Source of the DNA: Niabella sp.
GTDB taxonomy: Bacteria; Bacteroidota; Bacteroidia; Chitinophagales; Chitinophagaceae
Length of the DNA: 64,000 nt
NCBI GenBank assembly: GCA_017744795.1
Contig: JAGIAQ010000002.1
Coordinates: forward strand, 1 to 64,000
Direction: 5' to 3'
This document shows positions 27,862-47,456 of this stretch, piece after piece. How positions within the stretch are numbered: position 1 is the stretch's first letter; each line of letters begins with the position of its first letter. Under the pieces are notes generated by a model, which was given only the letters and a program-made list of their open reading frames with translations, was not told where the DNA came from and did not search any database. Made by a program: the position numbers and the translations under genes.

Positions 27862-30800
27862 TTATTGAACAATCCTAACCTCCCCTTCTAAACCCGCCTT
27901 CAGCAAGGGCTTGCCCTGCAGGAACAAAGGCGCTGTGGTCCAGGTTACGCGCTTATTTTCAGGCAGCAGCAGATCGCCGATCAGCCGGTTGGCCCAGGTG
28001 TTGCTCACTATTATTTCAATAGTATTTTGTCCTTGCTTCACTGTATTTGAAATATCTAACTGGTAAGGTTCCGTCCAAATCGTACCACAGGCAGTTCCAT
28101 TAACACGGACGGTTGCGCAATTATAGACGCTATTAATCCGGATGAAAACAGGCTTGTCTTTTTTCAGATCAGCAATACTAAAATTGTTCTTATAAACTGC
28201 CCTGCCTGAATAATATTTTATTGCGGGGTTTTCATTTTGATTCCAGAGTTGCAGCTTATGAAACACCACGGACTCCCGGGGTCCGCCGTAAGCCGTGTCG
28301 AACTGCACGTTCCACACATTATTGAGTATCGCGATTGTTTTGAGTTCCTCAACAATAGTCTTTTTCTGTTTTTCAAAGGTTTGCTGTCGGAACACTATAA
28401 AGGCCGACCCATTGGCCGCCAAGGGCAGATTTACAAAGGTTCTGCCTTGTTTTATTTCCCAATTATTACTCACGCTAATCGTTCCGGAAACGGGATCCCA
28501 TACCTCCGGCATATATCCGGCAACCCTGAATGACAATCTAAGCGTTTGTGCCCGGTTCTCCTGATTTGCGATAAAATAACTATCGCCGTTGTCCAGCTTT
28601 CTATGTGCCCAGGCAATCACACTATTCGACAAAACATCCACATCTTTCGGCACTTCCAGTTTATCAAACGAGGCCTCGTTATATGGTGCTGGTATTAGTT
28701 TGTATTTTCCATTAAAGGCATCAATCTTTTTCCAAACCGCATCCAATTCTTTCTGGTTTTCATTAAAACCAATGGATTGCCAGGATTGTTTATCGATAAT
28801 AATCGTTGCACCATCGCGCTGCAGCTCCTCAATCTTTTTAGCCACGGCCAGTGACATTAAACTACCGTTCGGATTCATTTTCGTTTTGCCGGGAAACACC
28901 AGTATCGAATAGCTGGCACCGGAAGGCAGCACCACTTTTCCGTTCAGCACTTTCGCACCCGCCAGGGCATCTGGATTAAAGCAATCATATTTATGGCCAT
29001 GCAACGCATCCGTCCAGTTTTCGGGGTCGGCCATATTTGCAGAGTGGGTTACCCCCTCTGGTATCGTTCGTTGCGGTTGATTGATATTTTCCAATCTTAT
29101 TTTCTCTGCCGCTACCCGTGCAGCACCAAAGATCCCGGGCAAGGTAGTAACCAACCGATCGGGCAATACCGAACGGCGCGGCACTTCTTCTCCTGTAAAT
29201 ACAGCAATATCCGTTACGGGCTTTCCCTGCTGCAGCATCGCTGAAACCCTTGCCAGGTAGGTAATCCAGGCATGGCTTTGCCGGAACCAGGTTTGGTCCC
29301 GCTGATAAAACAAGCCAATCCCCCCCAGCGTCATGCCAGGCTTCCGGTTCATCCAGGGATTATGTGTAAATACGTGTAATACCATTTTATTGATCCCCAT
29401 CGCAAAATTCCGGTCGCCCAATGCTTTTATATTTCCCGGCTGTTCGCTCCAATCCATTCTTAGTGTTGTAAACGCTTCTGCCTGTATTACGTTCTTTCCA
29501 TAAATATGACCGCTGCTTATGGCATCCAGCATATCGTTCGGTTTATCATGCGTTGGGCTTTTTAACCAGAATTCTCCCATAGGTATATCCACCGTTTTGT
29601 AATGCAGCAATCCGTCGCTCGTCATGGTAGGCGCTACACTTTCCGCGCTAAAGGCGCAGCCTTTTTCATGTGCCAGTTTTACAAGCGTTTTATAAAACAC
29701 ATCATTGATCAACGCAGCAATCGTCTCCCGCACATCATGCAATACTCTTTCCGAAACTGTAGCGCTTTCTATGGGAACACCCGCCATCACCGGCAGATAA
29801 GACATCAGATCATAGCCGCGTCTTTTTTTAAATTCGGCTGCAAAATCCTTTCCCCAATTCTGACTACCGGCTTCCCAGCTATCCACATGAAATATTTTCA
29901 ATACCTCCGCTGCCAGTCCCGGACTCGTTTTTTCAAATGCTTTTGCAAACCAGTTTTCAAATTGAAGTGTTACCGCGTCCTTATTAAATTTATCACATTC
30001 CAATCCTTTTGCTGCACCGCCCGTGGCATTGACGTGGCCCGTAGAGGTATGCCCCATTCTTAAAATGATCCAATTTCCCCGGGCAGGGGGTTGCCAATTC
30101 AGGTTACCGTCCTTGTCCATTTTGGCGGTAAGATTTATAATATTCTTTAACGGCACTGCGCTGCCGTTCGACACCATTTCCGGCGTTGTATTTTCTGCGA
30201 TGCGCCACATACTCCCGTTTTTTGCTTCGATCTGGTTGATCACCGGTTCATCGCTCAGGTAAATTCCTTTTATTTTTAAAACCGGTTTCCATTTAGCAGC
30301 ATCCAGGTCTTCGGCTCCGGGCTCCGTTCCTTCTTTATCATAAACAAAGCGAAAGTATTTTGCAGTAATAGCGGGAATGGAGTAGGTATTATCTTCATCT
30401 GTATCCTGCCAGCCATGGCGTGCTGGTTGCAACCGCATCACTGTTTTAAAATTCATTCCGTCATTACTGTATTGCAGGAGCAACCGTTGCGCCTGGTAGT
30501 TGTTCCCCCCGGTATGAATTTTTAATGATCGCAATGTAAATGCCTTTGAATAGGCATATTGGATCCAGCAGGTGCTATCGCTTCTGAAAGTTCCACCATC
30601 ATTATTTTCTATAGCGAGCCAGGGAATCTTTTCCCCGGTACTTGCCGTTACAGCCGGTGCAGGTGCGCTCTTTCCGAAGGCCGCCTCCGCGTTAGCGGGA
30701 TAAGCAAATACAGCGATATCTTTATAAAAATTTTCCCGGGTTTCCGGTTGTTTCAATCTGAGTTTATTTGTTGCTCCGGCATGCAGGTAGGTTTTCGTCC

Positions 30801-31233
30801 ATACCAGTTTTTGCATCGACTGCTCTGGTTTTATCCAGGGACCGCCCGCCAGCGCAAAGCCATCGCTTACGTGCATGGCCAGTTTTAGTCCTAACCGCTT
30901 GCTTTCTGCCATCGCATGATTCACCATCGCCCACCATTCCGGGGTCAGCTGTCTTGCGGGTTTTGGATAGGGCACTTTCCAGGTAGTATCATAAATGGGC
31001 ATCAGGTAGGCACCGCCAATCCCGGCTTGCTTCATTGCTTCCAGGTCTGCGGTGATCCCTTCTTTTGAAACGGCCGCATACATCCAATACCAGAACACCC
31101 AGGGTTTCGCCTCCTGCGGCGGATGCCGGAATATTGAATCTAACTTTAAGGACTTTTCATTTTGTCCCCAACAGACATTACCCAATAAAAAGAATGCAAT
31201 GCTGATTGCTGCTGTTTTCAAACATCCGCTCAT
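27862..31233 (-). CDS. GH106-type alpha-L-rhamnosidase
   Basis: A large secreted glycosidase (1123 residues) expected to remove alpha-L-rhamnose from rhamnogalacturonan. Signal peptide ending VCWGQ. The family start is clear: HPPQEAKPWVFWYWM, then AMKQAGIGGAYLMPIYDT and GLKLAMHVSDGFALAGGPWI, a TIM barrel with inserted carbohydrate-binding-like domains (about 200-330). FHVDSWEAGSQNWG and FSAESVAPTMTSDGLLHYK carry candidate catalytic carboxylates. A C-terminal beta-sandwich ends the protein. It is last in the minus-strand array, 187 bases after the BASS transporter. Confidence 0.9.
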   Translation of the reverse strand: MSGCLKTAAISIAFFLLGNVCWGQNEKSLKLDSIFRHPPQEAKPWVFWYWMYAAVSKEGITADLEAMKQAGIGGAYLMPIYDTTWKVPYPKPARQLTPEWWAMVNHAMAESKRLGLKLAMHVSDGFALAGGPWIKPEQSMQKLVWTKTYLHAGATNKLRLKQPETRENFYKDIAVFAYPANAEAAFGKSAPAPAVTASTGEKIPWLAIENNDGGTFRSDSTCWIQYAYSKAFTLRSLKIHTGGNNYQAQRLLLQYSNDGMNFKTVMRLQPARHGWQDTDEDNTYSIPAITAKYFRFVYDKEGTEPGAEDLDAAKWKPVLKIKGIYLSDEPVINQIEAKNGSMWRIAENTTPEMVSNGSAVPLKNIINLTAKMDKDGNLNWQPPARGNWIILRMGHTSTGHVNATGGAAKGLECDKFNKDAVTLQFENWFAKAFEKTSPGLAAEVLKIFHVDSWEAGSQNWGKDFAAEFKKRRGYDLMSYLPVMAGVPIESATVSERVLHDVRETIAALINDVFYKTLVKLAHEKGCAFSAESVAPTMTSDGLLHYKTVDIPMGEFWLKSPTHDKPNDMLDAISSGHIYGKNVIQAEAFTTLRMDWSEQPGNIKALGDRNFAMGINKMVLHVFTHNPWMNRKPGMTLGGIGLFYQRDQTWFRQSHAWITYLARVSAMLQQGKPVTDIAVFTGEEVPRRSVLPDRLVTTLPGIFGAARVAAEKIRLENINQPQRTIPEGVTHSANMADPENWTDALHGHKYDCFNPDALAGAKVLNGKVVLPSGASYSILVFPGKTKMNPNGSLMSLAVAKKIEELQRDGATIIIDKQSWQSIGFNENQKELDAVWKKIDAFNGKYKLIPAPYNEASFDKLEVPKDVDVLSNSVIAWAHRKLDNGDSYFIANQENRAQTLRLSFRVAGYMPEVWDPVSGTISVSNNWEIKQGRTFVNLPLAANGSAFIVFRQQTFEKQKKTIVEELKTIAILNNVWNVQFDTAYGGPRESVVFHKLQLWNQNENPAIKYYSGRAVYKNNFSIADLKKDKPVFIRINSVYNCATVRVNGTACGTIWTEPYQLDISNTVKQGQNTIEIIVSNTWANRLIGDLLLPENKRVTWTTAPLFLQGKPLLKAGLEGEVRIVQ

Positions 31234-31419: not shown

Positions 31420-32757
31420 TTATTCTGCAATCCGTTTCTTTTCGCTTTCATCGGAAGGATCTTTTACATACGCCTCCACACCTTTTGTTTCTACGGGTTT
31501 ACGCCGCCAATAATTGGCTAAAATGCTTCCGCTGATATTCATCCAGGGACTGAACACCGCGGGGGCCAATCCCACCGTGCCCAATTTACCCATCGTGCCC
31601 GCCAAACCGCTGGCCATACCGCCATTTTGTAAGCCAACCTCGAAAGCAACCGTACGACTCGAATTTTTATCCAGACCAAACAAACGGCTCAGCCAGTATC
31701 CAAAAAAATATCCTGCCGCATTATGAATGACCGAAGCAACAAATAACAACAAACCAATCTTCATCAGGTTATCCCTCCCTGCTGCCGTAGTAACCATCGT
31801 AAAATAAATAATACCAAACATCGAGATATAAGGCATTATCTTATCGATTTGTGCAAAGCGATTATAAATAAGATGATATACAACACCGCCGCTTACAGCG
31901 CAGGCCAGAAACCCGGATAACTCCAACGATTGCAATGCCGCATGTGCGGCCCCGTTATGCTCTAAAAAAGGATACCCGAATACTAAAAGAACTATCGCAT
32001 ACACAGCACAAGAAACAGCCGTTATATAAACATTCCGGCGTTTTTTTGGTGAAGCCGTTTTCAAATAATCATGCAGCAACGCAGCGCCGATCGGCACAAT
32101 GACGATCTTGATGATCTCTACCATCATATCGACAAACTTTACTTCGATAAGCGTTCCAGCCAGCACTTTCATTAATAACGGTGTAAGAAATGGAGCCGCC
32201 AGGGTAGCCATCGCCGTAACGATGACAGACAATACCAGGTTTGCACGCGCCAGGTATACCATCACGTTAGAAGCCAGTCCGCTGCTGCAACTGCCGATCA
32301 ATATAACGCCGGCAGCTATTTCCGGTTCGAAGTGAAATACTTTTGTAAGCAATAAGCCCATCAGGGGCATTACTGAAAAATGACAAAGCAATCCGATCAA
32401 CACCCCTTTGCCCGTATAAGCTAATCCTTTAAAATCCCTGATGCTGATATGGGTCCCCATGCCAAACATGACCAATTGAATAATAACCAGTATCAGTGTT
32501 TTATCGCGAAGGTTTATCGATCCCCAATTTAGAAAAGCCTGCGGATACAGCATTCCTGCAACCACCGCAACAATGATCCAGGCGGTATACTGGTATCCCT
32601 TTGACGAAGGAAAAGCACCCAACCCCATAGCAAAGAGCACAGCAGTTATTAATGCAGACACTTTTATCATCACCGTATGCTGCAACACTGTCCCTATTAA
32701 AAGTACTGCCGCCACGATGCAACATCCATAAAAACTGATCTTATAAATTTTCTGCAT
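31420..32757 (-). CDS. BASS-family (bile acid:sodium symporter-like) transporter
   Basis: An inner-membrane transporter with about ten hydrophobic segments. The SBF/BASS core has FGMGTHISIRDF, then LLCHFSVMPLMGLLL and the sodium-site-like GSCSSGLASNVMVYLARANL. It has an extended N-terminus (three segments before the core) and a soluble Lys/Glu-rich tail, 445 residues in all. BASS proteins move organic anions with sodium, including keto acids and bile acids, which suits import of a sugar acid. It starts 3 bases after the racemase-family gene, so it belongs to the RuBisCO-like operon. Confidence 0.88.
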   Translation of the reverse strand: MQKIYKISFYGCCIVAAVLLIGTVLQHTVMIKVSALITAVLFAMGLGAFPSSKGYQYTAWIIVAVVAGMLYPQAFLNWGSINLRDKTLILVIIQLVMFGMGTHISIRDFKGLAYTGKGVLIGLLCHFSVMPLMGLLLTKVFHFEPEIAAGVILIGSCSSGLASNVMVYLARANLVLSVIVTAMATLAAPFLTPLLMKVLAGTLIEVKFVDMMVEIIKIVIVPIGAALLHDYLKTASPKKRRNVYITAVSCAVYAIVLLVFGYPFLEHNGAAHAALQSLELSGFLACAVSGGVVYHLIYNRFAQIDKIMPYISMFGIIYFTMVTTAAGRDNLMKIGLLLFVASVIHNAAGYFFGYWLSRLFGLDKNSSRTVAFEVGLQNGGMASGLAGTMGKLGTVGLAPAVFSPWMNISGSILANYWRRKPVETKGVEAYVKDPSDESEKKRIAE

Positions 32758-32760
32758 GGC

Positions 32761-33426
32761 CTATCCCAACAGTTTTGCTAAATATTCCATTGCTATGGGC
32801 GGACTGGCAAGGATGGGTATTTTCTTTTCCTGATCCGACAAGCCATTCACCACGCGTGCCATGGAAGCCTGCGCTAATACTATTACATCTACCTCATCCA
32901 CCAGCCGCTTTAAAGCGGCTGCTACAACCGCGTCATGTGTTGCGGCATCTCCCTTCATTAAGGCTTCAAAAGCACCTTCACATAACCGGGAGAGGATCGT
33001 TACCTCTTTCCCCGCCGCAACTGCCCTACGGCGCACCAGGTCTGACGTGGGTTCCAGAGTGGTTGACAAAGTAGCCACCACGCCAATCCGGCTTCCTGCA
33101 GCTATTGCAGCATCCGCCATCGGCTGATCTACCCGCAGCACCGGCACATCCGTTAAACTCTCGGCCGTTTCCACTGCAGGGCCAATAGAAGAGCAGGTGT
33201 ACATAATGTAATCGGCCCCGGCTTCTTCCGCCGCATTGGCATACCCTACTACCCGCTTTGCTGTTTGGGGGGTTAGTTTGCCACAGGCAATGGTATTTTT
33301 AATGAGACTATCATCCACAATATTGAAAACCTTAATACCCGGAATGTACTTCCGGCAAAGCTCCTCAAATACCGGCACCAGGGTGGCCGACGTATGGATC
33401 AATCCTAATGTTTTTGATGCTGCCAT
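32761..33426 (-). CDS. Asp/Glu/hydantoin racemase-family protein lacking the second catalytic Cys
   Basis: A cytoplasmic protein with the two-lobed racemase fold. The first catalytic position is Cys78 in YTCSSIGPAVE. At the second position, where racemases have a Cys (for example ACTGM), the sequence reads VLAQASMARV, so Gln186 or Ala187 replaces it. One-Cys relatives include decarboxylases and isomerases of small diacids, so racemase activity is doubtful. It sits between the DUF1537 kinase (79-base gap) and the BASS transporter (3-base gap), implying a role on the same sugar acid. Confidence 0.85.
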   Translation of the reverse strand: MAASKTLGLIHTSATLVPVFEELCRKYIPGIKVFNIVDDSLIKNTIACGKLTPQTAKRVVGYANAAEEAGADYIMYTCSSIGPAVETAESLTDVPVLRVDQPMADAAIAAGSRIGVVATLSTTLEPTSDLVRRRAVAAGKEVTILSRLCEGAFEALMKGDAATHDAVVAAALKRLVDEVDVIVLAQASMARVVNGLSDQEKKIPILASPPIAMEYLAKLLG

Positions 33427-33460
33427 TTCTAAAATTTATTTTTGAACAAATTCGTTTTCT

Positions 33461-33487
33461 CTACAAATGTTTTGCTCCGATGGAGCT
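33461..33487. repeat. intergenic repeat, family B (copy 2)
   Basis: CTACAAATGTTTTGCTCC then GATGGAGCT; lies in the 79-base gap between the DUF1537 kinase and racemase-family genes. Confidence 0.5.
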
Positions 33488-33505
33488 TCATTACTTTTTT
33501 AATTA

Positions 33506-34810
33506 TTATCTACCCGTTCGCATTACTTCAAAATAATCTTCATCTCCCACCTGGCCTCCTTTAAAATTCACTTCCAATCCGTCAATGTGCTTATTCGATG
33601 AAAGGGCCCGGCAAAGCGGCGCGCCGGTAACTATCGGGGCGATCATCTCCACCGCTTCAATTTCCATCGCCCTGGCCGTATAGCTGCTGGTATCGCCCCC
33701 GGCAGCCACCACACGTTTCAGGTTATTGTTAAGCAATACCTGTTTTACGATTGTACCCAATGCCGTCCCCAATTTTTCGGAAGAGATGTTTTCTGCGGCT
33801 TTATTGCCTGTATGTACAATAACACTTTTTCCGGAAGCCAATAATTCGTTTATCACTTCTATGACACCGGAAGGCACATCGTTATTACAAACCCCAATCG
33901 CATCGATAATCACTTCTTTAAAACCAAGAGACAAGGCATAGGTAATTTGTTTTGCCGTTACGGGAGAACAACTGCCAGACACCACCAATAGCGGATCTGC
34001 CGCTGCAACCGCGGGCCATTGTTCTTTTCGTTGCAAGAGCCCTGTTTGGTTCCAGTATGCGCCTAACGCCGTTTCAATTCCGGAACCTCCTACAGAAAAG
34101 ACCGTTGCCCCCGGGATCCGGGTATCCATCCATTCGCCAATCTTTGGCAACTGGTTTTCATACAAGGCATCAACCAAAACTACCTCAGCTTCATCATCCG
34201 GCAGCGCCTTCCACTCCTGCACCGGTTTGTCCTGTTGCAGCATATCGATCAATCCAAATGTTGTTTTAATTTGCCGGAAAAGGTGCAGCCGCAAATCGCT
34301 TTCATCCGCTGGTGTTACGGGGTGTTTGCTCATGGATGGATGGCGGTCCAGCCGATACATTTCCCTGTTGCCACCCGTACCCATTCCCGCAAAAAGATTT
34401 CCAAAAACACAATAGCGGCCCAGGGAAGGAGCGCCACCCAAAACGGGTATGCGCTTACTATTAAATATAGCTCGTCCAATCTCCATAGCGCAACCAATAC
34501 TCCCGATTGCCGGAGAAGAATCAAATGTGGAACATACTTTATAATGCACGTGCTTTACTCCCGTTGCCTTTATCTTTTCAAAGGCTTCGCTTAACGTTGC
34601 CTGCATTTCAGCAACTGGCAGCGACCGTGTTTTACCGGCAATACCGATCACATCAAGGTCTTTCAGCCGTTCAGCGTTGAGCTGCTCCGGCAGTTCAATA
34701 AACAACAATGCTTTGGCTCCGGCTTTACAGATGCATTCCAATGCATCGGTAGCGCCGGTAAAATCATCGCCATAAAATGCCAGTAATTTATTTTTTGCTG
34801 TTTGTTGCAT
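33506..34810 (-). CDS. DUF1537 four-carbon acid-sugar kinase family protein
   Basis: An ATP-dependent kinase of the OtnK/DtnK/OiaK family, which phosphorylates short sugar acids. The N-terminal substrate domain carries LLAFYGDDFTGATDALE (residues about 10-26). The C-terminal nucleotide domain carries VAAGGDTSSYTARAMEIEAV and APIVTGAPLCRAL. Length 434 is normal. Its ATG is 3 bases after the RuBisCO-like gene stop. Family members paired with RuBisCO-like proteins act on 3-oxo-isoapionate in D-apionate catabolism; the same or a related substrate is the first hypothesis here. Confidence 0.92.
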   Translation of the reverse strand: MQQTAKNKLLAFYGDDFTGATDALECICKAGAKALLFIELPEQLNAERLKDLDVIGIAGKTRSLPVAEMQATLSEAFEKIKATGVKHVHYKVCSTFDSSPAIGSIGCAMEIGRAIFNSKRIPVLGGAPSLGRYCVFGNLFAGMGTGGNREMYRLDRHPSMSKHPVTPADESDLRLHLFRQIKTTFGLIDMLQQDKPVQEWKALPDDEAEVVLVDALYENQLPKIGEWMDTRIPGATVFSVGGSGIETALGAYWNQTGLLQRKEQWPAVAAADPLLVVSGSCSPVTAKQITYALSLGFKEVIIDAIGVCNNDVPSGVIEVINELLASGKSVIVHTGNKAAENISSEKLGTALGTIVKQVLLNNNLKRVVAAGGDTSSYTARAMEIEAVEMIAPIVTGAPLCRALSSNKHIDGLEVNFKGGQVGDEDYFEVMRTGR

Positions 34811-34813
34811 GAG

Positions 34814-36100
34814 CTATTTTCCTCCGAACTTTTCCACACTTTTTCCAAATTCTTTGTAACAAGTAGCAGCCTCCTGCAACGAAAGCCCCTCAACAGCGGC
34901 GTTCCAGGCCTGCTGCAGCGCGGTAACGCCAGCGGCAGGCCCCATAGGATGCGCCAGAATACCTCCACCGGCCATATAGAGCAAGTCTTGCGTATGTGTA
35001 CGTTGCCAGGTTTCAAACACTTGTCCGCCCCACTGCCCGGAGGATACAACGGGCAGTACGTTTTCCTGATTAAACATTTTTGTTAAACAGGCATCAATAG
35101 AAGCCACCACGCTGTCATCCGTTTCCCAGAATTTATTTTGAATTCCGTTCACATGCAGCTGATCAACGCCTGCCAGGCGCCATATTTTCTGATAGGCCCT
35201 GAAATCGATCCCCAGTAAGGGATGCCGCGTAAGCATGCCCCAGCCGTTGCGGTGTGCATGTATGGCCAGTTGACGCTGATCACATATTTTCTTCACCCCG
35301 CTTAATCCTACGCTATTGATACTGATCATAGCACAGGTTCCCCCGTGTTTTACAATCGTTTCATAGCGCCGGAGCATCTCATCCAGCTCCCCGCTAAGGT
35401 TAAAGGCATACATGATCTTCTTACCTGTTTTATCAGCATGCTCGTTAACCGCACTCATGATGCCTGTCACCCGGTCTTCAAATCTTGAATTAGCCGATGA
35501 GGATAATAATTCGTCGTCCTTGATAAAATCAATACCAGCGGCCGCTAAGGTTTTTACTAAGTCAACAGTTTCCGTTACAGACAAACCCACAGAAGGTTTG
35601 ATAATCGTTCCGATCAATGGGCGAGATGTAACGCCTGTCAGCCTGCGGCAGCCCTCCACACCAAATTCCGGTCCTTTAAAATGGGTGCCGAAGGATGCCG
35701 GCAATTCAATGTCCATCAGCTTTAAGCCAGTAAACTGTGTGATCTCATATAAATTCCCCTGCAGGGTTGACAGCATTACCGGCAGGTTATAACCAAAGTT
35801 TTCAATGCTCCAGGAAACCTCCACTGTTGCCCGGTTGTACACACCCGTTTTGCTTATGGCGCCGGGAATCGCGGGCTGATCCACGGTTTCCAAAGGGGTC
35901 ACCTTTTCCACGCGTGCTGCAAAGCGTTGTTTTAGTGCTTCTGTTTCCCCCGGAACGGCAACAAAGGTGCCCGATGACTGTTCACCCGCCAATACCGCTG
36001 CAGCTGCTTCCGGCTCGTAGGGTGTCTCAATATAATAGACCGCTTTTATACGTTCTGCTTCCGCCATTGATGACAAATCGTGTCCGGTATTTATATTCAT
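34814..36100 (-). CDS. RuBisCO-like protein (form IV-type RLP)
   Basis: A RuBisCO large-subunit homologue of 428 residues. Aligned by eye to true RuBisCO: Lys168 in GTIIKPSVG corresponds to Lys175. The carbamylation site is kept as Lys194 with Asp196 and Glu197 (FIKDDE). His316 and loop-6 Lys323 (LHVNGIQNK) match His327 and Lys334. The equivalent of Lys177 is Ser170, and the SGQWGG and GGGILAHPMGP regions differ from carboxylases. No small subunit or phosphoribulokinase is near. RLPs next to DUF1537 kinases are decarboxylases or transcarboxylase/hydrolases of 3-oxo-isoapionate 4-phosphate (OiaX/OiaT). I infer similar chemistry on a phosphorylated 3-keto sugar acid. Confidence 0.93.
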   Translation of the reverse strand: MNINTGHDLSSMAEAERIKAVYYIETPYEPEAAAAVLAGEQSSGTFVAVPGETEALKQRFAARVEKVTPLETVDQPAIPGAISKTGVYNRATVEVSWSIENFGYNLPVMLSTLQGNLYEITQFTGLKLMDIELPASFGTHFKGPEFGVEGCRRLTGVTSRPLIGTIIKPSVGLSVTETVDLVKTLAAAGIDFIKDDELLSSSANSRFEDRVTGIMSAVNEHADKTGKKIMYAFNLSGELDEMLRRYETIVKHGGTCAMISINSVGLSGVKKICDQRQLAIHAHRNGWGMLTRHPLLGIDFRAYQKIWRLAGVDQLHVNGIQNKFWETDDSVVASIDACLTKMFNQENVLPVVSSGQWGGQVFETWQRTHTQDLLYMAGGGILAHPMGPAAGVTALQQAWNAAVEGLSLQEAATCYKEFGKSVEKFGGK

Positions 36101-36146
36101 TATTGTTTGTTTAATACACTACTGCAGAATTAATCGTGAGACGTGA

Positions 36147-36164
36147 TCCCGATAGCCATCGGGA
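36147..36164. repeat. CCGATAGC-type palindrome
   Basis: TCCCGATAGCCATCGGGA, 7-bp arms, in the gap between GH127 and the RuBisCO-like gene. The same motif occurs inside repeats at 27688 and 51411. Confidence 0.5.
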
Positions 36165-36202
36165 GATAAACGTGAGAGCCGCACCTTTAACCTGGCACTA
36201 CC

Positions 36203-38227
36203 CTATTTTCTTATCAACGGCATCCACACCGTCATATCCCCTTCGCCCCTGTTCGCCCAGGCGTAATAGGGGATCAACTTCACCGTTACCGGTTTTTCTT
36301 TAGTATTCACTTCTTTATATAATTGATGGGTCCAATCCTCCTGAGTCATGAGCGCCGCCTGGCCCGTCAGCGCTATAACATTACCGTTCGCAATTTTCAT
36401 CTGCACAGGTTTTAATTGTATCCCGGATGGTATGCCAACATTAAATATATCATCCCCCTTCATATCGGCGGTTTCAACACAATACACAACCGGACCACGT
36501 TTCACGGCCACCTGGTTGCGTGTGGCTTCCACCATCGGGTTCGATTCGATCAGCGTTGCAGGCATATCTAACAGCAAGTCTATCTTATCCCCTTTTTTCC
36601 ATTCCCGGTTGAGCGTAAAATATTTCCCGCCGCTGATAGTTGCGTCTACTATCTTACCATTAACTTTTACGCTTGCTTTTTTGCACCAGCCGGGAATACG
36701 CAAGTGTAATTGCAGCACCCCTGCCGGGACCCGTTCTATTGTTAACTGCACCACACCCTCCCAGGGATAATTACTTACCTGTTTTAAGGCAATTACTGAG
36801 CCGTCTTTTAGTTTTGTATTAAGATCATTACCTCCGTACATATTTAAATACAACCCGTCCGCCCCAACACTATACATGTAGTTACTCACTTCGGCAATGG
36901 TACGTACTACATTTGGCGGACAGCAATTGGATTTACTAATGTACGGAACACGACCGCCTTCCCAGCGCAAGTGATAAGGATATTCGGACGAGTGTGCCAG
37001 GGGGTTGGTATAAAAGAATTTGGTCCCGTCCATACTGATCCCACTCAGCACACTATTGTACAAAGCCAATTCCACGATGTCGAAATACTTTTCTTCACCG
37101 GTCAGCAAAAACATGCGGTAGTTCCATAACACATTCCCGATATTGGCGCAGGTTTCATTATGTGCGGAGAAATTAGGCAGCTGGTAGCTTCTTCCATAAG
37201 CCTGGTGTACCTTTTGAACGGTATCCGGATTATATGAAGTGCCATCCACGGAAACACCATCGTATAAAGCACCACAACCGCCGGTGATATACATTTTAGT
37301 GAGCATAACATTATCCCAAAGGGTATCTAATGTTTTCAGTAATGTTTTATCACCATCCTCTGCATACAGATCCGCCGCTCCGGCCATCAAATAATTGGCC
37401 CGTACCGCGTGGCCGACCACCTGTTTCATATCCCGGAAGGGAGCACGATCGCTGTTATCATCCGTACCTTCCACTGTGCCACGAATGTCAATCAATTTTG
37501 TTAAAAGATCCAGGTATTTTTTTTCATGGGTGGTGCGGTATAACTCTGCAAGCCCCATATAATGCGAAGGGCAGATCGCGTTGCGCGCTTGCTCCGGTGT
37601 AGCTTTCGTATAAAAACCAATCAGGAAATCTGCCGCTTTTTTTGCAATATTCAGCAGATCTGTTTTGCCGGTAGCCCGGTAATGCACACAGGCAGCCGTC
37701 ATCAGGTGCCCGAAATTATAGGCTTCAAAACTGAGCTTATCGTCAAACATTTTTGATTGCCCTGATTTTTTTTGTTCGATAATATTCTTAGTATAAATAT
37801 AGCCATCTGCACGCTGGGCTTTGCCAATTACGTTTATAGCGGTTTCCATCCAGTTGTTCAACTGAGGGTCTTTGGTGGACGCATATAGTGCTGCTACAGC
37901 TTCCAGTGTTTTATAAAAATCACCATCGTGAAAAGAAGGCCCGCGGAAGCTGCCGCTTTTTAACCCGGCGGCGATTTTAAAATTTTCAAAAGAGTAACAG
38001 ATCGTATCGCTGGTATAAGTGCGCCAGAGTGTGGGTACCATCGACTCCCGGCAAACGGCAAAACGTTCGGCCCAAAAGCCGCTGGTAAAATGGACGTCGC
38101 CCAGCCCCAATGTACTTAGCGCAGCATAAGGGCTGCGGGCCGTATTAATCAGCCCCTGTTGAGCGAAAGCCTCTATAGTGCCCAAAGTACAACAGGCTAT
38201 GGTAATGATTAATATTAATCTTTTCAT
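36203..38227 (-). CDS. GH127-family glycoside hydrolase (beta-L-arabinofuranosidase type)
   Basis: A secreted (signal peptide ending EAFAQ) (alpha/alpha)6 hydrolase of 674 residues. GH127 enzymes use a zinc-bound cysteine nucleophile. The expected ligands are visible: Glu and Cys in HNETCANIGN (about residue 357) and the Cys pair in SNCCPPNVVRT (about residue 434). A C-terminal beta-sandwich follows. Family members release beta-L-arabinofuranose, and one rhamnogalacturonan-II enzyme of the family acts on aceric acid; which applies is unknown. It lies 102 bases before the RuBisCO-like gene. Confidence 0.92.
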   Translation of the reverse strand: MKRLILIITIACCTLGTIEAFAQQGLINTARSPYAALSTLGLGDVHFTSGFWAERFAVCRESMVPTLWRTYTSDTICYSFENFKIAAGLKSGSFRGPSFHDGDFYKTLEAVAALYASTKDPQLNNWMETAINVIGKAQRADGYIYTKNIIEQKKSGQSKMFDDKLSFEAYNFGHLMTAACVHYRATGKTDLLNIAKKAADFLIGFYTKATPEQARNAICPSHYMGLAELYRTTHEKKYLDLLTKLIDIRGTVEGTDDNSDRAPFRDMKQVVGHAVRANYLMAGAADLYAEDGDKTLLKTLDTLWDNVMLTKMYITGGCGALYDGVSVDGTSYNPDTVQKVHQAYGRSYQLPNFSAHNETCANIGNVLWNYRMFLLTGEEKYFDIVELALYNSVLSGISMDGTKFFYTNPLAHSSEYPYHLRWEGGRVPYISKSNCCPPNVVRTIAEVSNYMYSVGADGLYLNMYGGNDLNTKLKDGSVIALKQVSNYPWEGVVQLTIERVPAGVLQLHLRIPGWCKKASVKVNGKIVDATISGGKYFTLNREWKKGDKIDLLLDMPATLIESNPMVEATRNQVAVKRGPVVYCVETADMKGDDIFNVGIPSGIQLKPVQMKIANGNVIALTGQAALMTQEDWTHQLYKEVNTKEKPVTVKLIPYYAWANRGEGDMTVWMPLIRK

Positions 38228-38343: not shown

Positions 38344-40623
38344 TTAAATCGCTTTATACAACACCTTGTATTCTTTATTTTTCTCTATTGTTAACTCATA
38401 CATATTATTTCCTTTACTCACTATCGCACCCTCTTTACATTCAGGTTGGGTTTTGCTGGTAATCACCAGCTTCCCTGTTCCCGCGGGCGCACTGATCCTG
38501 ATCTCGGAGGTACTGCAATACATTTTGATATTTCCCGCAGGAGTAGGAACTGCTCCTTCCATCCATTGCAATCCGCCTAGTACCGGCTCCACGGTATACT
38601 GTGCATAGCCCGGCGCAGTTGGCTTTACTCCCAGGTAATATTTGCCCAGAAGATAGATGGGACTGGCGCCCCAGGCGTGACAAAGGCTTTTGCCATATTT
38701 GCGCCCGTACATGGCGTAATGCTCCGCCCCTTTTTTGGAAGGATCATATTCCTCCCAAAAAGATGTAGCACCCAGACGCAACATGCCGCCCCAATAATTT
38801 TTCATTTCCTTTAATACAATACTTTGATCCCCCAATGCGCATAAGGCTTCCAGCTCATAAAACCGCATATAAGGTGTTGTTATCTTCGGCACATTTTTAT
38901 TGAGCAGCACCGAGTTTTTTACAGCAGTTTTTTGCTGCCCATTAAAATAATCGAAGAACACCGCAAACATATTCGCATAGCGGGTTACATTATCCGTTGG
39001 CGCACCATTGATCCTGCTATGCACTAAGGCCTTCTTTTGATCATTCCAGTAATAATCAAACAGTTTTTTCTTTACATCTGCTGCCTCCGACTGGTATTTT
39101 GCGGCGGCATCTTTTTCATCCACTAGTCCGGAGCACAACGCCATCGTTTCCAGGCTGCGCGCAAATAACAATTGCTCAAAACTAACCTCCCCTTTCTTGC
39201 TCAGGCCCGTAGCCCAGTCGATAAAGATCCAGTCACCGGGCAGCCCTTCCAGCAAGCCATCCTTATTCCTGCGGCCCAGCACGTAATCCATAAGGCTCTT
39301 CATGCGGTCATAGTTTTGCACAATAAAACTTTTATCACCTGAGTAGAGATAATAATCATAGATGCTAAGAAACCAATAGAACGTATAATCCATGATAGTA
39401 TTGATATGACTGGTAACGGGATCTTTACCGCGCAGCGCGTACATAGTGCGGGTCACCGTAGGATTATCATTCATTAGATAATAATTCATCAGGTAGCTCT
39501 GATAGGCGTCTCCGCTCCAGATCCAGCGATCACGCTTGATGCCATCGATAAAGAATTCGCGGGTGCTGAGGTGCAGGGTGTATTTTGCTACCTCGTAAAT
39601 TTTATTAATTTCTTCATCACTGCATTTAAAGCTTCCTTTGTCCGGCAGATCGCTGTACTCATACAACATGGAGGCTCCGGACAGTTTTACCGAACCTTCC
39701 GGCACGATATTGATATACCGGAAGGCTTTAGACAATTGCAAGCTGGTATCTTTAGGATTTTGCTGATCTACGTCCAACCGGTCCAGGGTTTCTGCATGTT
39801 CCGGGTCTAACGCTTCTTCTTTACTTTCGCCGAAATACACGGTCAGTCTGCCTTTTCCCTGAACGTCCCGCAGCTTTACAAAACCAAAGGTTTCTTTTCC
39901 GAAGTCTACAAGTAAATTATTCCCGCTTTTTTGCGCGCTGACCGCATTTAATGGTTGTACGGGCAATTTAAATAATGAAGGCTTCTTGTCCGGCGTATTA
40001 AAATTCCAATGCCCGGCATTCAGCCATTTAGTTGTAGAAACATCTGAGGTTTTTCCCGATTCATCGATCCATTCCTTATCCTCAAAAGTTACCAGCCAGC
40101 TGCTATCGCTGTTAACCGTTCTTCCCTGAACATAAATGACGGGTGGACTGGATTGATTAAACACTTTTACATTGATCTTGTGTTTCCCGGCCGGAACAGT
40201 AATCACAGCCGGTGTGCCTTCAAACGCTTTCCCATCCAGTTTTATGTTATACTTGCCTTCGGCATAGATGTGTACCGTTTCGGGTTGAGAGAGCTCCACT
40301 ATTTTATGAAAATCCATCAGCGGATAATGACTATCCACTTTCCAGAACACCGGGAAAAAAGTACCCCGTTCGGTACGCCGGTTCTGCATTTGATTGGCCA
40401 GCCATATCTCGTAATCACCGGGATACCAGATCCAGGTTTGAGCCGCCGTAGTCAACCGCAAAGACGCAAAGGCGCAAAGGAGGATGAAGGTTTTGATGGC
40501 AGATGAAGACACCCGCCACGGCGAAAACAAAGAAAGCCGAGCTTTGCACTGGTGCACAAGTGAGTGACACAACCCCGATGCTACCTGCATTACAGCCCGC
40601 CAACAAAAAAAATTATTTTCCAT
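38344..40623 (-). CDS. GH78-related alpha-L-rhamnosidase-like protein with repeat-derived N-terminus
   Basis: A secreted, probable rhamnosidase of 759 residues. Residues about 62-330 form N-terminal beta-sandwich modules (TWIWYPGDYEIWLANQM). Residues about 345-650 form the (alpha/alpha)6 domain (IDGIKRDRWIWSGDAYQSYL; GKSLCHAWGASPIYLLGKY). A C-terminal beta domain closes the protein. It has IDGIKRDRW where canonical GH78 has DCPxRxER, so it is a divergent subfamily. The ATG at 40623 lies one base after the symporter stop. The first 60 residues are encoded partly by two intergenic repeats (40553-40585 and 40454-40481), the second giving the hydrophobic core of the signal peptide. Confidence 0.87.
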   Translation of the reverse strand: MENNFFCWRAVMQVASGLCHSLVHQCKARLSLFSPWRVSSSAIKTFILLCAFASLRLTTAAQTWIWYPGDYEIWLANQMQNRRTERGTFFPVFWKVDSHYPLMDFHKIVELSQPETVHIYAEGKYNIKLDGKAFEGTPAVITVPAGKHKINVKVFNQSSPPVIYVQGRTVNSDSSWLVTFEDKEWIDESGKTSDVSTTKWLNAGHWNFNTPDKKPSLFKLPVQPLNAVSAQKSGNNLLVDFGKETFGFVKLRDVQGKGRLTVYFGESKEEALDPEHAETLDRLDVDQQNPKDTSLQLSKAFRYINIVPEGSVKLSGASMLYEYSDLPDKGSFKCSDEEINKIYEVAKYTLHLSTREFFIDGIKRDRWIWSGDAYQSYLMNYYLMNDNPTVTRTMYALRGKDPVTSHINTIMDYTFYWFLSIYDYYLYSGDKSFIVQNYDRMKSLMDYVLGRRNKDGLLEGLPGDWIFIDWATGLSKKGEVSFEQLLFARSLETMALCSGLVDEKDAAAKYQSEAADVKKKLFDYYWNDQKKALVHSRINGAPTDNVTRYANMFAVFFDYFNGQQKTAVKNSVLLNKNVPKITTPYMRFYELEALCALGDQSIVLKEMKNYWGGMLRLGATSFWEEYDPSKKGAEHYAMYGRKYGKSLCHAWGASPIYLLGKYYLGVKPTAPGYAQYTVEPVLGGLQWMEGAVPTPAGNIKMYCSTSEIRISAPAGTGKLVITSKTQPECKEGAIVSKGNNMYELTIEKNKEYKVLYKAI
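40454..40481. repeat. 'ccgcaaagacgcaaag' repeat inside a coding region
   Basis: AACCGCAAAGACGCAAAG followed by GCGCAAAGGA, a short repeat normally intergenic in Bacteroidota. Here, read on the minus strand, it codes for residues about 48-57 (LLCAFASLRL) of the GH78-like protein. Confidence 0.7.
40553..40585. repeat. family C repeat inside a coding region (copy 5)
   Basis: On the minus strand GGGTTGTGTCACTCACTTG; the 15 bases TTGTGTCACTCACTT are identical to the intergenic copy at 19130-19178. It codes for residues about 13-24 of the GH78-like protein. Confidence 0.6.
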
Positions 40624-40624
40624 A

Positions 40625-42202
40625 TTATGAACCAAATATTAAATACAATACAATCATTACAATACATAAAGCCGCCCAGGCAATTTTTACGCGGCGGGTG
40701 GGTTTTGCTAATTCTTGCGTAGCTATTGCCGTACGAACCGGCTTCGGATCTGTTGCGGAGAGCATTATAGCAAGGACTACGAGCAGCAGGAAAATAAAAA
40801 AAGACAACAATAAATAATGCGGCCAAAAATGATATTGTTTTGCCGGCAACACCCATAAATAAATGACACCGATACCCAGGCTGATGGCCGATCCCCAGGA
40901 GAGTGTAAAGTTGACCGCCCGGCGCGTCGTCTTTTTCCAGAACACCGCCAGCAGGAATACGGCCGATAGCGGCGGCGCAATGAAGCCCAGCACGGCCTGA
41001 AACACATCAAATAAATTAAGGCCTTTGATACTATCAATAGCGACTGCCATCAATATCGCAAACCCGCAGCCCGCCAGCACGGTAAGCCTTCCCACTTTTA
41101 TGATCTGCCGATTGGTTGCGTTTGGATTGATCCTCTTTACATAAATATCCGTTGTAAACACAGTGCTCAGCGCATTTAATGAAGAGCCGATGGTGCCCAC
41201 CAGCACTGCGATCAGCACCACGATTACCAAACCGTTCAATCCCGCCGGAAATAAATTCGTAACCATCGTCATATAGGCCTCGTCTGCGCTGGGTAAATTC
41301 GGATAAAGCACGGCGCAAACAATTCCCGGAATAATAAACAACGGAATTGAAAATATTTTTAGCCACCCGATAAAATTTACGCCCAGCTGCCCCTGCTCCA
41401 GGTTGCGTGCGCCCAATACCGATTGCACCATCGCCTGATCGGTACAAAAGAAAGCAACCGCCGAAACGGGATACCCCAACAAGATAGCCGGCCACGGGTA
41501 ACCCGCATCCGACGCGGGTTTCACAAGGCTCCAGTAAGAAGCCGGCGTTTTGGCAAACAAGGCGGAAAGCCCGCCCACTTTTTGAACGCCCAGCACGCAA
41601 AGGATACAGGACACAATGATCAGCAGGATCATCTGGAATACATTCACCCGCGCGATGGCTTTTAACCCACCGGCTACCGCAAACAATGCGGCAAACAATA
41701 CCAGCACGATCACCGACTGCCACATGGGAATGCCTAATATTTGTCGCACGAGGAAACCGCCTGCAAACAAACCCAATGACAACCACGAAATCAGCATCTT
41801 CACCATGGCATACCAGGCCAGGATATTACGCGTGTCTTCCCCATAGCGTTGCCCCATAAATTCCGGCATGGTGGTTACATTGCTGGCTAAATACCTTGGC
41901 GCAAAAACCATCGCCAGCAGCATGAGGAATACAAATGCATACCATTCAAAATTACCGGCTACAATGCCCGTGGCATAACCGATGCTGGCAAAGGCCAGCA
42001 ACATCGAGGGTCCCACATTGGTGCCCCACATATTGAACCCAATATTATACCAGTTCAATGACTTGCCAGCAAGAAACAGGGTTTCATCCTGCTTCTTTTT
42101 TTTGCCAAAGCTGGCCCTATAACCGATCACCAGCAATACCACAAGATATACCACCACAATGGCATAATCGATCGGTTGTAATTTTGAAATAAGATGATTC
42201 AT
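40625..42202 (-). CDS. sodium:solute symporter (SSS family)
   Basis: An inner-membrane sodium-coupled sugar transporter of 525 residues with about 13-14 membrane segments and the LeuT-like fold. Family features: the first segment with DYAIVVVYLVVLLVIGY, then LAGKSLNWYNIGFNMWGTNVGPSMLL, and a later SLNALSTVFTTDIYVKRINP. The C-terminus is a hydrophobic anchor. It is between the Gfo/Idh oxidoreductase and GH78 genes, so the cargo is likely rhamnose or a related pectin monosaccharide or acid. Confidence 0.92.
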   Translation of the reverse strand: MNHLISKLQPIDYAIVVVYLVVLLVIGYRASFGKKKKQDETLFLAGKSLNWYNIGFNMWGTNVGPSMLLAFASIGYATGIVAGNFEWYAFVFLMLLAMVFAPRYLASNVTTMPEFMGQRYGEDTRNILAWYAMVKMLISWLSLGLFAGGFLVRQILGIPMWQSVIVLVLFAALFAVAGGLKAIARVNVFQMILLIIVSCILCVLGVQKVGGLSALFAKTPASYWSLVKPASDAGYPWPAILLGYPVSAVAFFCTDQAMVQSVLGARNLEQGQLGVNFIGWLKIFSIPLFIIPGIVCAVLYPNLPSADEAYMTMVTNLFPAGLNGLVIVVLIAVLVGTIGSSLNALSTVFTTDIYVKRINPNATNRQIIKVGRLTVLAGCGFAILMAVAIDSIKGLNLFDVFQAVLGFIAPPLSAVFLLAVFWKKTTRRAVNFTLSWGSAISLGIGVIYLWVLPAKQYHFWPHYLLLSFFIFLLLVVLAIMLSATDPKPVRTAIATQELAKPTRRVKIAWAALCIVMIVLYLIFGS

Positions 42203-42340: not shown

Positions 42341-43414
42341 CTACAACTTCCCCAGCCCATGCTGTTTCAGCAATGCCTTTACCTGAACGGGCTGCCGCGT
42401 TTGTAAACTTTCATCCATCGCCTGTAACAAGGCCACAGTGCCGATCCCCTCGCGCATATCGGGATAAGCCGTTGTATTATTGACGATGCTATCCGCGAAA
42501 TATTCAAGGTAATTCTGATATTCACCGGCATGGTGACTTTGCCCCTCAAAACGGAAATAATGATTCAACTGCTCATCGCCCCAGGTGATCAGTTGCTGGT
42601 CGCCTTTCTTATTGGAGATGGCATAACGCAGCTCATGATAATCTGCCTGGCTGGCACCTTCCGTCCCGCGCAAAATACAGCTCATCTCGCTTTCCCGGGC
42701 AGTGGGCTGCACCGGGCCAGTGTACGCACCGCTCACCCGGGCCACGCGTCCGTCTTTATTCCGGAAAATAAAGTGCATGGTATCCTCGTTTTTCAATCCG
42801 GCTTTTTTACCATTGGCACTGATCATCCCATAGCCCATTACTTCTTCAATATCCGGCAGGTACCAGCGGATAAAATCAACCGGATGGCTTAAGCCGCCGT
42901 AGAGCCATTTGAACGATTTTTCCAATGCCCATTTCTTTTTTAAAAACCAGCGGTGGTCAGCATTATAATGGCTTTCAACGGTGATCAGCTCACCGATCAG
43001 ACCCTTCTCAAAATCAGCCCGCTGCCGTTTGTAGGGCTCAAAAAAACGGGAACTTTGTCCTACAAAAACCTTTTTCCCGGTTTTCTGCTGCAACTTCAAT
43101 AATTCCTTTGCATCCGCAAGATTATCAATAAAAGGTTTGGTACAAACCACATGCTTGCCATGCTGTAATGCCAGCCGCACATGCTGTGCGTGCAAATGAT
43201 CCGGCGTGTAAATGGCTATAATATCGATGTCCGGGTCGTTCAACAACTCTTCATAACGCGTGGTGTACCGGTCAAACCGGAACTCCCGGCAACGTTGTTT
43301 GCATAATTCTTCATTGGCATCGCAAATCATTTTCAACTGCAATTTTTTGCTCTGCAATGCGGCCGACATCGTGCTGCGGCCCTCCCCTAATCCTACAATC
43401 CCGATATTCAACAT
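42341..43414 (-). CDS. Gfo/Idh/MocA-family oxidoreductase
   Basis: A cytoplasmic NAD(P)-dependent sugar oxidoreductase of 357 residues. N-terminal Rossmann domain starts LNIGIVGLGEGRST; the catalytic Lys region is HVVCTKPFIDNLADA (TKP in place of the common EKP). The C-terminal domain is the alpha/beta substrate half. No signal peptide is present, although many Bacteroidota relatives have one. Likely substrate: a monosaccharide or cyclitol of the pectin pathway. It could supply the keto-acid precursor for the RuBisCO-like/DUF1537 pathway; this is inference. Confidence 0.88.
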   Translation of the reverse strand: MLNIGIVGLGEGRSTMSAALQSKKLQLKMICDANEELCKQRCREFRFDRYTTRYEELLNDPDIDIIAIYTPDHLHAQHVRLALQHGKHVVCTKPFIDNLADAKELLKLQQKTGKKVFVGQSSRFFEPYKRQRADFEKGLIGELITVESHYNADHRWFLKKKWALEKSFKWLYGGLSHPVDFIRWYLPDIEEVMGYGMISANGKKAGLKNEDTMHFIFRNKDGRVARVSGAYTGPVQPTARESEMSCILRGTEGASQADYHELRYAISNKKGDQQLITWGDEQLNHYFRFEGQSHHAGEYQNYLEYFADSIVNNTTAYPDMREGIGTVALLQAMDESLQTRQPVQVKALLKQHGLGKL

Positions 43415-46514: not shown

Positions 46515-47456
46515 ATGGAAGCGATTGCAGGAAAGTTTGTACCCGTAATGATCACGCCCTTTAATCTGAAAGCAGGTATCGACTATGATGCCGTAACAGA
46601 ACTCGTGGCGTTTTATCTGGAAGCAGGCGTAGCGGGCTTTTTCGCCAACTGCCTTAGCAGCGAAATGTTCAGCATTACTGAAGAAGAGCGACTGGCATTG
46701 ACCCATCACGTAGTAAAATGTGTAAACGGACGCGTGCCAGTAGTGGCCACCGGCTCCTTCGGACTCACGGTAGAAGACAAAGCCCTATTTACAAAAAAAA
46801 TCTACAATACAGGTGTTGATGCTGTTATAATGATCAGTGGGCATTTTGCTAAAGTAGATGAGCCCGATGAGGTACTCCTGCGCAATTTTGAAAAACTATT
46901 TGCCCTTACAAATGATATTCCCCTGGGCATTTACGAATGTCCGGCCCCCTACAAACGTATATTGGGTGCCGGTGTTTTCAAACAACTCCTGCAATCCGGC
47001 CGGTTGGTGTATCACAAGGATACCTCCATCACGCACGAAAATGTGCAGGCCAAACTGGATGTGTTAAACGCCACCAACAGCTCCCTCGAGTTTTATGATG
47101 CGCATACGCCCAACGCCTTGTTCAGCATGCAACAGGGCGCAAAGGGAATGTCGTCCATATCCGGAAACTTTTATCCTGAAGTGTTGGTTTGGATGGTACA
47201 AAATGCCAACAATCCCGAGCAACAGGAAACGGCAAAATGGCTGCAGGCGGAGTTGACAAGCGTGGATCCGATGATCCACCAGGCCTACCCCATGAGCGCG
47301 AAATATTTCTTGGAAAAGCGCGGACTGCCGGTGCGCACCATCAGCCGGGCCTATGCACTGCATCTGACGCCGGATCAGAAAAAGGAAGTGAATGCACTCT
47401 ACGACCGGTTCCTGGGTTGGTGCGACCGGTTAGGTATTCAGCCCGTAAGATTGTAA
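46515..47456 (+). CDS. DapA/NanA-family aldolase
   Basis: A cytoplasmic class I aldolase or dehydratase with the (beta/alpha)8 barrel of dihydrodipicolinate synthase. The Schiff-base lysine is Lys168 (VYHKDTS) and the catalytic Tyr140 is in GIYECPAPYK. The usual GxxGE loop reads FFANCLSSEMFS, so it is not a true DapA. Family members cleave 2-keto-3-deoxy sugar acids or sialic acids to pyruvate plus an aldehyde. In this locus a 2-keto-3-deoxy acid derived from a pectin sugar is plausible. Length 313. Confidence 0.87.
   Translation: MEAIAGKFVPVMITPFNLKAGIDYDAVTELVAFYLEAGVAGFFANCLSSEMFSITEEERLALTHHVVKCVNGRVPVVATGSFGLTVEDKALFTKKIYNTGVDAVIMISGHFAKVDEPDEVLLRNFEKLFALTNDIPLGIYECPAPYKRILGAGVFKQLLQSGRLVYHKDTSITHENVQAKLDVLNATNSSLEFYDAHTPNALFSMQQGAKGMSSISGNFYPEVLVWMVQNANNPEQQETAKWLQAELTSVDPMIHQAYPMSAKYFLEKRGLPVRTISRAYALHLTPDQKKEVNALYDRFLGWCDRLGIQPVRL

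Follow-up and report, generated by a model that had tools for sequence, protein, structure and literature searches.

Among the sugars of rhamnogalacturonan II (RG-II) is aceric acid (3-C-carboxy-5-deoxy-L-xylose, C6H10O6), an acid sugar that is both rare and branched, being an aldose with its carboxyl group on C3. In the catabolism of branched sugars, the D-apionate pathway with the kinase OiaK and the RuBisCO-like proteins (RLPs) OiaX/OiaT was reportedly described by Carter et al. 2018. OiaK and the OiaX/OiaT RLPs act in this pathway, and transcarboxylation plus hydrolysis is assigned to an RLP of Xanthobacter (PMC6302742). The RLP oxygenase of the D-hamamelose pathway, named in a title cited by PMC10176493, also takes part in branched-sugar catabolism. 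With respect to release, BT1003 of Bacteroides thetaiotaomicron is a GH127 aceric acid hydrolase (PMC5698469). Here, we describe a cassette of four genes encoding an RLP, a DUF1537 kinase, an Asp/Glu-racemase-family protein and a BASS/SBF-family transporter, found in a stretch of 64,000 nucleotides of Niabella sp. (Bacteroidota; GenBank assembly GCA_017744795.1, contig JAGIAQ010000002.1, positions 1 to 64,000), hereafter the window. Judging from its sequence, this cassette is probably a catabolic pathway for aceric acid. It resembles the D-apionate system in that a DUF1537 kinase stands beside an RLP that would act on a phosphorylated branched beta-keto acid, but differs from it in its racemase-family protein and BASS transporter and in its link to an aceric acid hydrolase. 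It also differs from BT1003, which only releases aceric acid, whereas the cassette would consume it.

The assignment of aceric acid as the substrate is well supported. The GH127 protein encoded beside the cassette reaches 1152.7 bits on the NCBIfam model NF049879 (aceric acid hydrolase), over the cut-off of 950, and it is in passing this cut-off that it resembles BT1003. Its N terminus carries a signal sequence (by eye), and the predicted site of aceric acid release is extracytoplasmic. NF049879 was matched by all 35 GH127 proteins located near an RLP (34 further loci and the window, with bits given for the window only), and the direct same-strand upstream gene was a GH127 in 26 of the 71 RLP rows with an upstream open reading frame (ORF), the next clustered family reaching at most 5. 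The aceric acid hydrolase type of this adjacent GH127 decides for aceric acid over apionate. The original prediction, made from the DNA letters, that the operon serves a branched sugar acid liberated from RG-II is supported. In the Bacteroides control genome (B. ihuae), a match to NF049879 was present and a RuBisCO_large match was absent.

Searching named genomes with the RLP of the window retrieved at least 80 loci with 63-81% identity, hence close relatives of the window. The 80 loci listed belong mostly to Bacteroidota, plus Balneolota and Verrucomicrobiota. By tblastn, the kinase was found in 75 of them, the racemase-like protein in 74, the BASS transporter in 74 and GH127 in 38 (four as contig-edge fragments), and all four cassette genes were present in 73, which is more than chance. 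Their order and strand were identical in 63 of 81 rows (ORF calling, window included), and a whole GH127 ORF clustered with the RLP in 34 of the listed loci plus the window. Among the seven incomplete loci, L017, L026, L038 and L078 hit the contig end; in L019, L022 and L025 the absent kinase was found elsewhere in the genome, as was the racemase-like protein in L019 and L025 (kinase and racemase-like protein being the two searched). As a separate observation, a metagenome-assembled genome (MAG) labelled Williamsia (Actinomycetota) displays a Bacteroidota-type gene order at its cassette locus (L048) and is probably a mislabelled or mixed bin.

The same association was recovered in an even, phylum-wide sample of 296 genomes (racemase-like protein at E <= 1e-15, RLP at E <= 1e-50, hydrolase at the NF049879 cut-off). 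RLPs of the clade formed by the cassette RLPs (see below; at least 68% identity) occur in 7 of these genomes, the other 25 RLP matches (E <= 1e-50) being only 28-30% identical, and the racemase-like protein occurs in exactly the same 7. The aceric acid hydrolase was over its cut-off in 16 genomes, all 7 RLP genomes among them; the hypergeometric probability of this overlap by chance is 3e-10 on genomes and 9e-9 on genera, both figures ignoring kinship. Hydrolase and RLP share a contig in 7/7, separated by 35, 49 and 102 bases in G332, G126 and G000, by 3.3 kb in G196, and by 27, 46 and 52 kb in G079, G248 and G067, respectively.

Two relatives show the locus without the cassette. In G315, from the genus of the window (locus L090), the order GH141-type protein, Gfo/Idh, symporter, rhamnosidase-like protein, GH127 and GH106 is intact and only the four cassette genes are absent between GH127 and GH106, GH106 following directly after GH127. 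Similarly, G184 (L082) retains the order common to the Pedobacter loci L040, L047 and L069, and only the four genes are absent. Neither the RLP nor the racemase-like protein was matched elsewhere in either genome. Among RG-II degraders, the cassette is thus a trait that can be separated from the rest of the locus. Another gene of the window, 49092-49967, encodes a xylose-isomerase-like TIM barrel that seems to begin with a signal peptide (by eye). Of the 16 hydrolase genomes, 15 have this gene, against 0 of the 280 others; it is probably an exported enzyme and a near-perfect marker of RG-II loci.

To place the RLP, a tree of 92 rows was reconstructed, with 74 cassette RLPs, four OiaX, MtnW and form I among them. 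The 74 cassette RLPs form one clade (100/95), sister to the four OiaX (98/93), while MtnW sits on a very long, distant branch and form I is also far from the cassette clade; owing to long branches and unsettled bootstrap, the deeper forks must be interpreted with care. The original prediction had named clustering with MtnW as the result that would speak against it, and the RLP is instead the sister of OiaX, far from MtnW. This sister position is also in line with D-apionate (apiose) catabolism, in which the RLP would be an OiaX or OiaT acting on 3-oxo-isoapionate 4-phosphate. Indeed, the top NCBIfam matches are OiaX (NF042437, 511.8 bits) for the window RLP and OiaK (NF042436, 384.5 bits) for the kinase, and apiose is likewise a component of RG-II (PMC12282258). 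However, both scores lie under their cut-offs of 700, the cassette distribution tracks the aceric acid hydrolase, and the OiaX rows deviate from the cassette clade at four form I active-site positions (detailed below). An OiaT model was not found among the NCBIfam matches of the scanned proteins. The PGDH_C-type gene of OiaX-type loci, which we take to be ApnO, the D-apionate oxidoisomerase, has matches of 69-72% identity on 3/3 OiaX/RLP plasmids searched. Of 46 cassette genomes, by contrast, 44 gave no match and two gave a match of only 32% identity across 104 residues (GH140 apiosidase was not searched for). The window Gfo/Idh protein has 31% identity over 118 residues to its OiaX-locus counterpart, and its gene belongs to the portion of the locus that persists where the cassette is absent. 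With no strong PGDH_C match in the 46 cassette genomes, the apionate branch is not supported, and D-apionate as the substrate seems unlikely. Of the two candidates first put forward, aceric acid therefore stands, given the type of the adjacent GH127, and apionate does not; the expectation that the operon would be related to, and yet unlike, the usual apionate genes agrees with both the tree and the PGDH_C searches.

The chemistry and the single steps of the route that we propose for aceric acid are inferred. GH127 would liberate aceric acid, as supported by its family, and the BASS protein would import it in a Na+-coupled manner. The racemase-family protein would then shift a proton from C2 to C1, the least sure step, so that the carbonyl ends up on C2 instead of C1, giving 3-C-carboxy-5-deoxy-L-xylulose, HOCH2-CO-C(OH)(COOH)-CHOH-CH3, a beta-keto acid. 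This product would equal 3-oxo-isoapionate (HOCH2-CO-C(OH)(COOH)-CH2OH) plus one CH2, CH(OH)CH3 replacing CH2OH. As no oxidation is needed from aldose to ketose, such a step would explain why the cassette is free of dehydrogenases. By its kinship to OiaK, the kinase would phosphorylate the CH2OH beside the keto group (1-phosphorylation), and the RLP, by its kinship to OiaX/OiaT and its residues, would act on the C3 carboxyl via a RuBisCO-type enediolate. In the more likely outcome, CO2 would be moved to C2 and hydrolysis would give 3-phosphoglycerate and L-lactate (from C3 to C5). Alternatively, decarboxylation would give 5-deoxy-L-xylulose 1-phosphate, which RhaD could cleave to dihydroxyacetone phosphate (DHAP) and acetaldehyde.

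The residues of the RLP bear on these outcomes. When the 74 clade rows are aligned with four OiaX rows and a single row each of form I and MtnW, Lys168, Lys194, Asp196, Glu197, His316 and Lys323 match the form I row and are each conserved in 74/74 clade rows. In the position of Lys177, the criterion for RuBisCO forms I-III, the cassette RLP has Ser170, again in 74/74; the form I Lys opposite Ser170 is presumably this Lys177 in the usual numbering. The residue list first read from the window and its exchange of Ser170 for Lys177 thus hold throughout the clade. In addition, Glu40, Asn116, His316 and Ser353 (74/74), which we take to be form I positions 60, 123, 327 and 379, are also present in nine other RLPs compared and in the form I row, whereas in the four OiaX rows they are replaced by Asp, Gly, Gln and Gly/Cys; the Asn, His and Ser of the cassette against Gly, Gln and Gly/Cys thus set it apart from OiaX. 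A Labrenzia RLP encoded next to a PGDH_C gene has the same kept residues as the cassette clade in the alignment, a hint only regarding OiaT. Lys177 excepted, the cassette RLP therefore retains residues that serve RuBisCO for more than decarboxylation alone, and those among them that OiaX has lost favour 3-phosphoglycerate and L-lactate over plain decarboxylation.

An RLP that only decarboxylates the same substrate, with RhaD completing the route to DHAP and acetaldehyde, is a possibility to which we give clearly less credit. The sister clade, OiaX, is a decarboxylase, and the bifunctional RhaD/dehydrogenase family is over its cut-off in 46 of 48 records (44 of 46 distinct cassette genomes) vs 2 of 14 control genomes, although RhaD is expected in every rhamnose eater. 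From the Fischer formulas, 5-deoxy-L-xylulose 1-phosphate would share the C3/C4 configuration of L-rhamnulose 1-phosphate, so that retention at C3 would yield the stereochemistry of RhaD. The kept residues argue against it, and two Verrucomicrobiota, G356 and G042, have the cassette and no RhaD over the cut-off; our choice of the outcome with 3-phosphoglycerate and L-lactate is based on these two observations. No TIGR02624 rhamnulose aldolase was over the cut-off in the 48 records searched, and no dedicated aldolase was found by Pfam among the neighbour clusters present in at least 10 of 81 rows, smaller clusters being annotated in part. A DHDPS-family gene (aldolase/dehydratase type) is present at 46515-47456 on the plus strand, close to the RG-II genes; relative to the cassette it has the opposite orientation at a distance of 10 kb, and it is outside the neighbour clusters in at least 10 of 81 rows.

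The isomerase role of the racemase-family protein is proposed because of exclusion and co-occurrence, since the only other cassette enzyme besides the kinase and the RLP is, by its family, a member of a cofactor-free proton-transfer group. It belongs to PF01177 (98.3 bits vs a gathering cut-off of 31). Its AlphaFold2 model (pLDDT 96.4) resembles aspartate/glutamate racemases, with aspartate racemase 1jfl as the best fold match (Z 21.2, root-mean-square deviation 2.5, 209 aligned) and other family members such as maleate isomerase 2xed (Z 15.2) ranked below; the fold does not settle the function. Cys78 occupies the first canonical catalytic place in 72/72 rows, and the second is occupied by Gln186 (at least 97% conserved) instead of the second Cys of two-base members; Cys149 is also invariant (72/72) but stands at neither canonical place, and the label "one-Cys" of the original prediction is therefore correct for the canonical pair. 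We know of no aldose-ketose isomerase in the Asp/Glu racemase family, which counts for another reading: that this protein decarboxylates as arylmalonate decarboxylase (AMDase) does, or epimerises another intermediate, the isomerase then being an unlinked enzyme. This reading is a serious contender, to which we give somewhat less than even chances. AMDase is likewise a one-Cys member of the superfamily (PMC4996985), but it keeps the second Cys (Cys188) and has Gly74 at the first place; set against the motifs given there, the cassette protein mirrors AMDase, with Cys78 on the Gly74 place and Gln186 on the Cys188 place, so that the retained Cys is the opposite one. Moreover, the racemase-like protein is strictly tied to the RLP in the phylum sample, and the nearby TIM barrel (49092-49967) was rejected as a cytosolic isomerase, having a signal peptide by eye and occurring with or without the cassette.

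Other arrangements were found outside the close relatives. The alphaproteobacterium Croceibacterium has a pectin-rich plasmid on which a GH127 gene is followed by genes for an RLP (51% identity) and a kinase (40%). At another site of this plasmid, the gene for a racemase relative (55%) overlaps that of an MFS transporter. The co-occurrence of the three counts in favour of the cassette as a unit, and the racemase-like protein would thus be paired with transport, as for an early step; the GH127 was rejected as an aceric acid hydrolase (NF049879, only 87 bits). A haloarchaeal plasmid of Halomarina (L100:8001-9284) encodes an RLP 47% identical to that of the window, followed by a DUF1537 kinase-like ORF. 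Further pairs of RLP and DUF1537 kinase are located on alphaproteobacterial plasmids (L097, L098, L101, L106 and L107) with transporters of the TRAP or 2-keto-3-deoxygluconate-permease type; the RLPs of L097, L098 and L101 score 382-481 bits on the OiaX model, below the cut-off of 700, and these pairs are perhaps further unassigned sugar-acid pathways.

Several observations weigh against aceric acid catabolism by the cassette. The 80 listed loci are close relatives found via the window's own RLP, and the two sets overlap, since no fewer than three RLP genomes of the phylum sample's seven (G126, G332 and G067) are also the genomes of loci L040, L073 and L054. In 46 of the 80 loci, the fetched stretch, in some cases a short contig, contained no whole GH127 ORF. 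Searches of these 46 whole genomes count in favour of the link: NF049879 was over the cut-off in 37, reached 854-911 bits in six, just below it (L075-L079 and L081, Verrucomicrobiota except for the unclassified L077), and was represented by a fragment in three. In these three, the MAGs L003, L010 and L021, the contig ends within a GH127 fragment located immediately upstream of the RLP, the L003 genome also having a 469-bit GH127 elsewhere. Also against the proposal, GH127 lies 27-52 kb from the RLP in G079, G248 and G067, and the cassette is absent from 9 of the 16 hydrolase genomes, meaning that these do not use aceric acid or that another route exists. In Croceibacterium, the GH127 beside the RLP has its low score and the RLP falls outside the cassette clade. 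Finally, in the three loci inspected, rhizobial relatives of the racemase-family protein (about 46% identity) are surrounded by ABC transporters and FAD-dependent oxidoreductases, and neither an RLP nor a kinase is annotated within 7 kb. The family is thus not confined to sugar acids and does other work too. As a clue to function, these relatives were dropped, their gene contexts being uninformative.

The cassette could also serve another RG-II component, or be an RG-II passenger with an incidental link to GH127. The near neighbours in many flavobacterial loci are other glycoside hydrolases (GH2 types) rather than GH127, and all the evidence is genomic. Nevertheless, no other family comes near GH127 in frequency as a direct neighbour, and the cassette, although separable, as seen from the TIM barrel in 15/16 and the cassette-less loci, never occurs without the hydrolase in the sample. 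Both readings thus appear unlikely, and aceric acid is retained as the probable substrate of the cassette.

The gene calls and Pfam matches confirm the four minus-strand genes, with gaps of 3, 79 and 3 bases (ORF coordinates), and the flanking GH127 and GH106, all as read initially (Table 1). On the upstream side, 102 bases separate GH127 from the RLP gene; on the downstream side, GH106 follows the BASS gene after 186 bases. The Niabella assembly, 90% complete, has a single PF00016 match. The BASS protein reaches 204 bits on NCBIfam PanS, below the cut-off of 400.

Table 1. Cassette genes and their context in the window
Feature	Positions	Strand	Length	Basis
RuBisCO-like protein (RLP)	34814-36100	minus	428 aa	Pfam RuBisCO_large 221.6 bits
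DUF1537 kinase	33506-34810	minus	434 aa	Pfam SBD_N 171.9 + NBD_C 96.3 bits
Asp/Glu-racemase-family protein	32761-33426	minus	221 aa	Pfam Asp_Glu_race PF01177 98.3 bits
BASS/SBF-family transporter	31420-32757	minus	445 aa	Pfam SBF 106.9 bits
GH127, aceric acid hydrolase type	36203-38227	minus		Pfam GH127; NCBIfam NF049879
GH106 alpha-L-rhamnosidase-family enzyme (context, outside cassette)	27862-31233	minus		Pfam
Bacteroidetes alpha-rhamnosidase-like protein (context)	38344-40635	minus		Pfam
Sodium:solute symporter (context)	40625-42202	minus		Pfam
Gfo/Idh/MocA oxidoreductase (context; present in cassette-less L090)	42341-43414	minus		Pfam and locus comparison
GH141 insertion domain + C-terminal L-rhamnose mutarotase domain (context)	43508-45997	minus		Pfam

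The GH141-type protein, the rhamnosidase-like glycoside hydrolase and GH106 in one run would be consistent with an RG-II locus. The first of these is a fusion of a glycosidase type (GH141 insertion domain) with a mutarotase (rhaM) domain. The gap between GH127 and the RLP gene (36104-36199) contains an inverted repeat, CCCGATGGCTATCGGG (by eye), possibly a terminator, an attenuator or a dispersed repeat. In the same region, 50213-51370 is an FMN-dependent L-lactate-dehydrogenase-like gene, whose substrate could be L-lactate, formed either from rhamnose or in the RLP route that we propose.

No paper on aceric acid catabolism was found in the open literature, judged by titles and abstract openings. 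The enzyme releasing aceric acid is already known; what is new here is a gene-by-gene proposal for its use, with four proteins. The two cassette-less relatives, G315 and G184, represent natural negative controls for this proposal. From their sequences and contexts, the four genes most likely encode a hitherto undescribed use of aceric acid by soil bacteria. If true, this would add a new RLP branch with a predicted CO2-moving reaction, together with an unexpected reaction for the cofactor-free racemase family.

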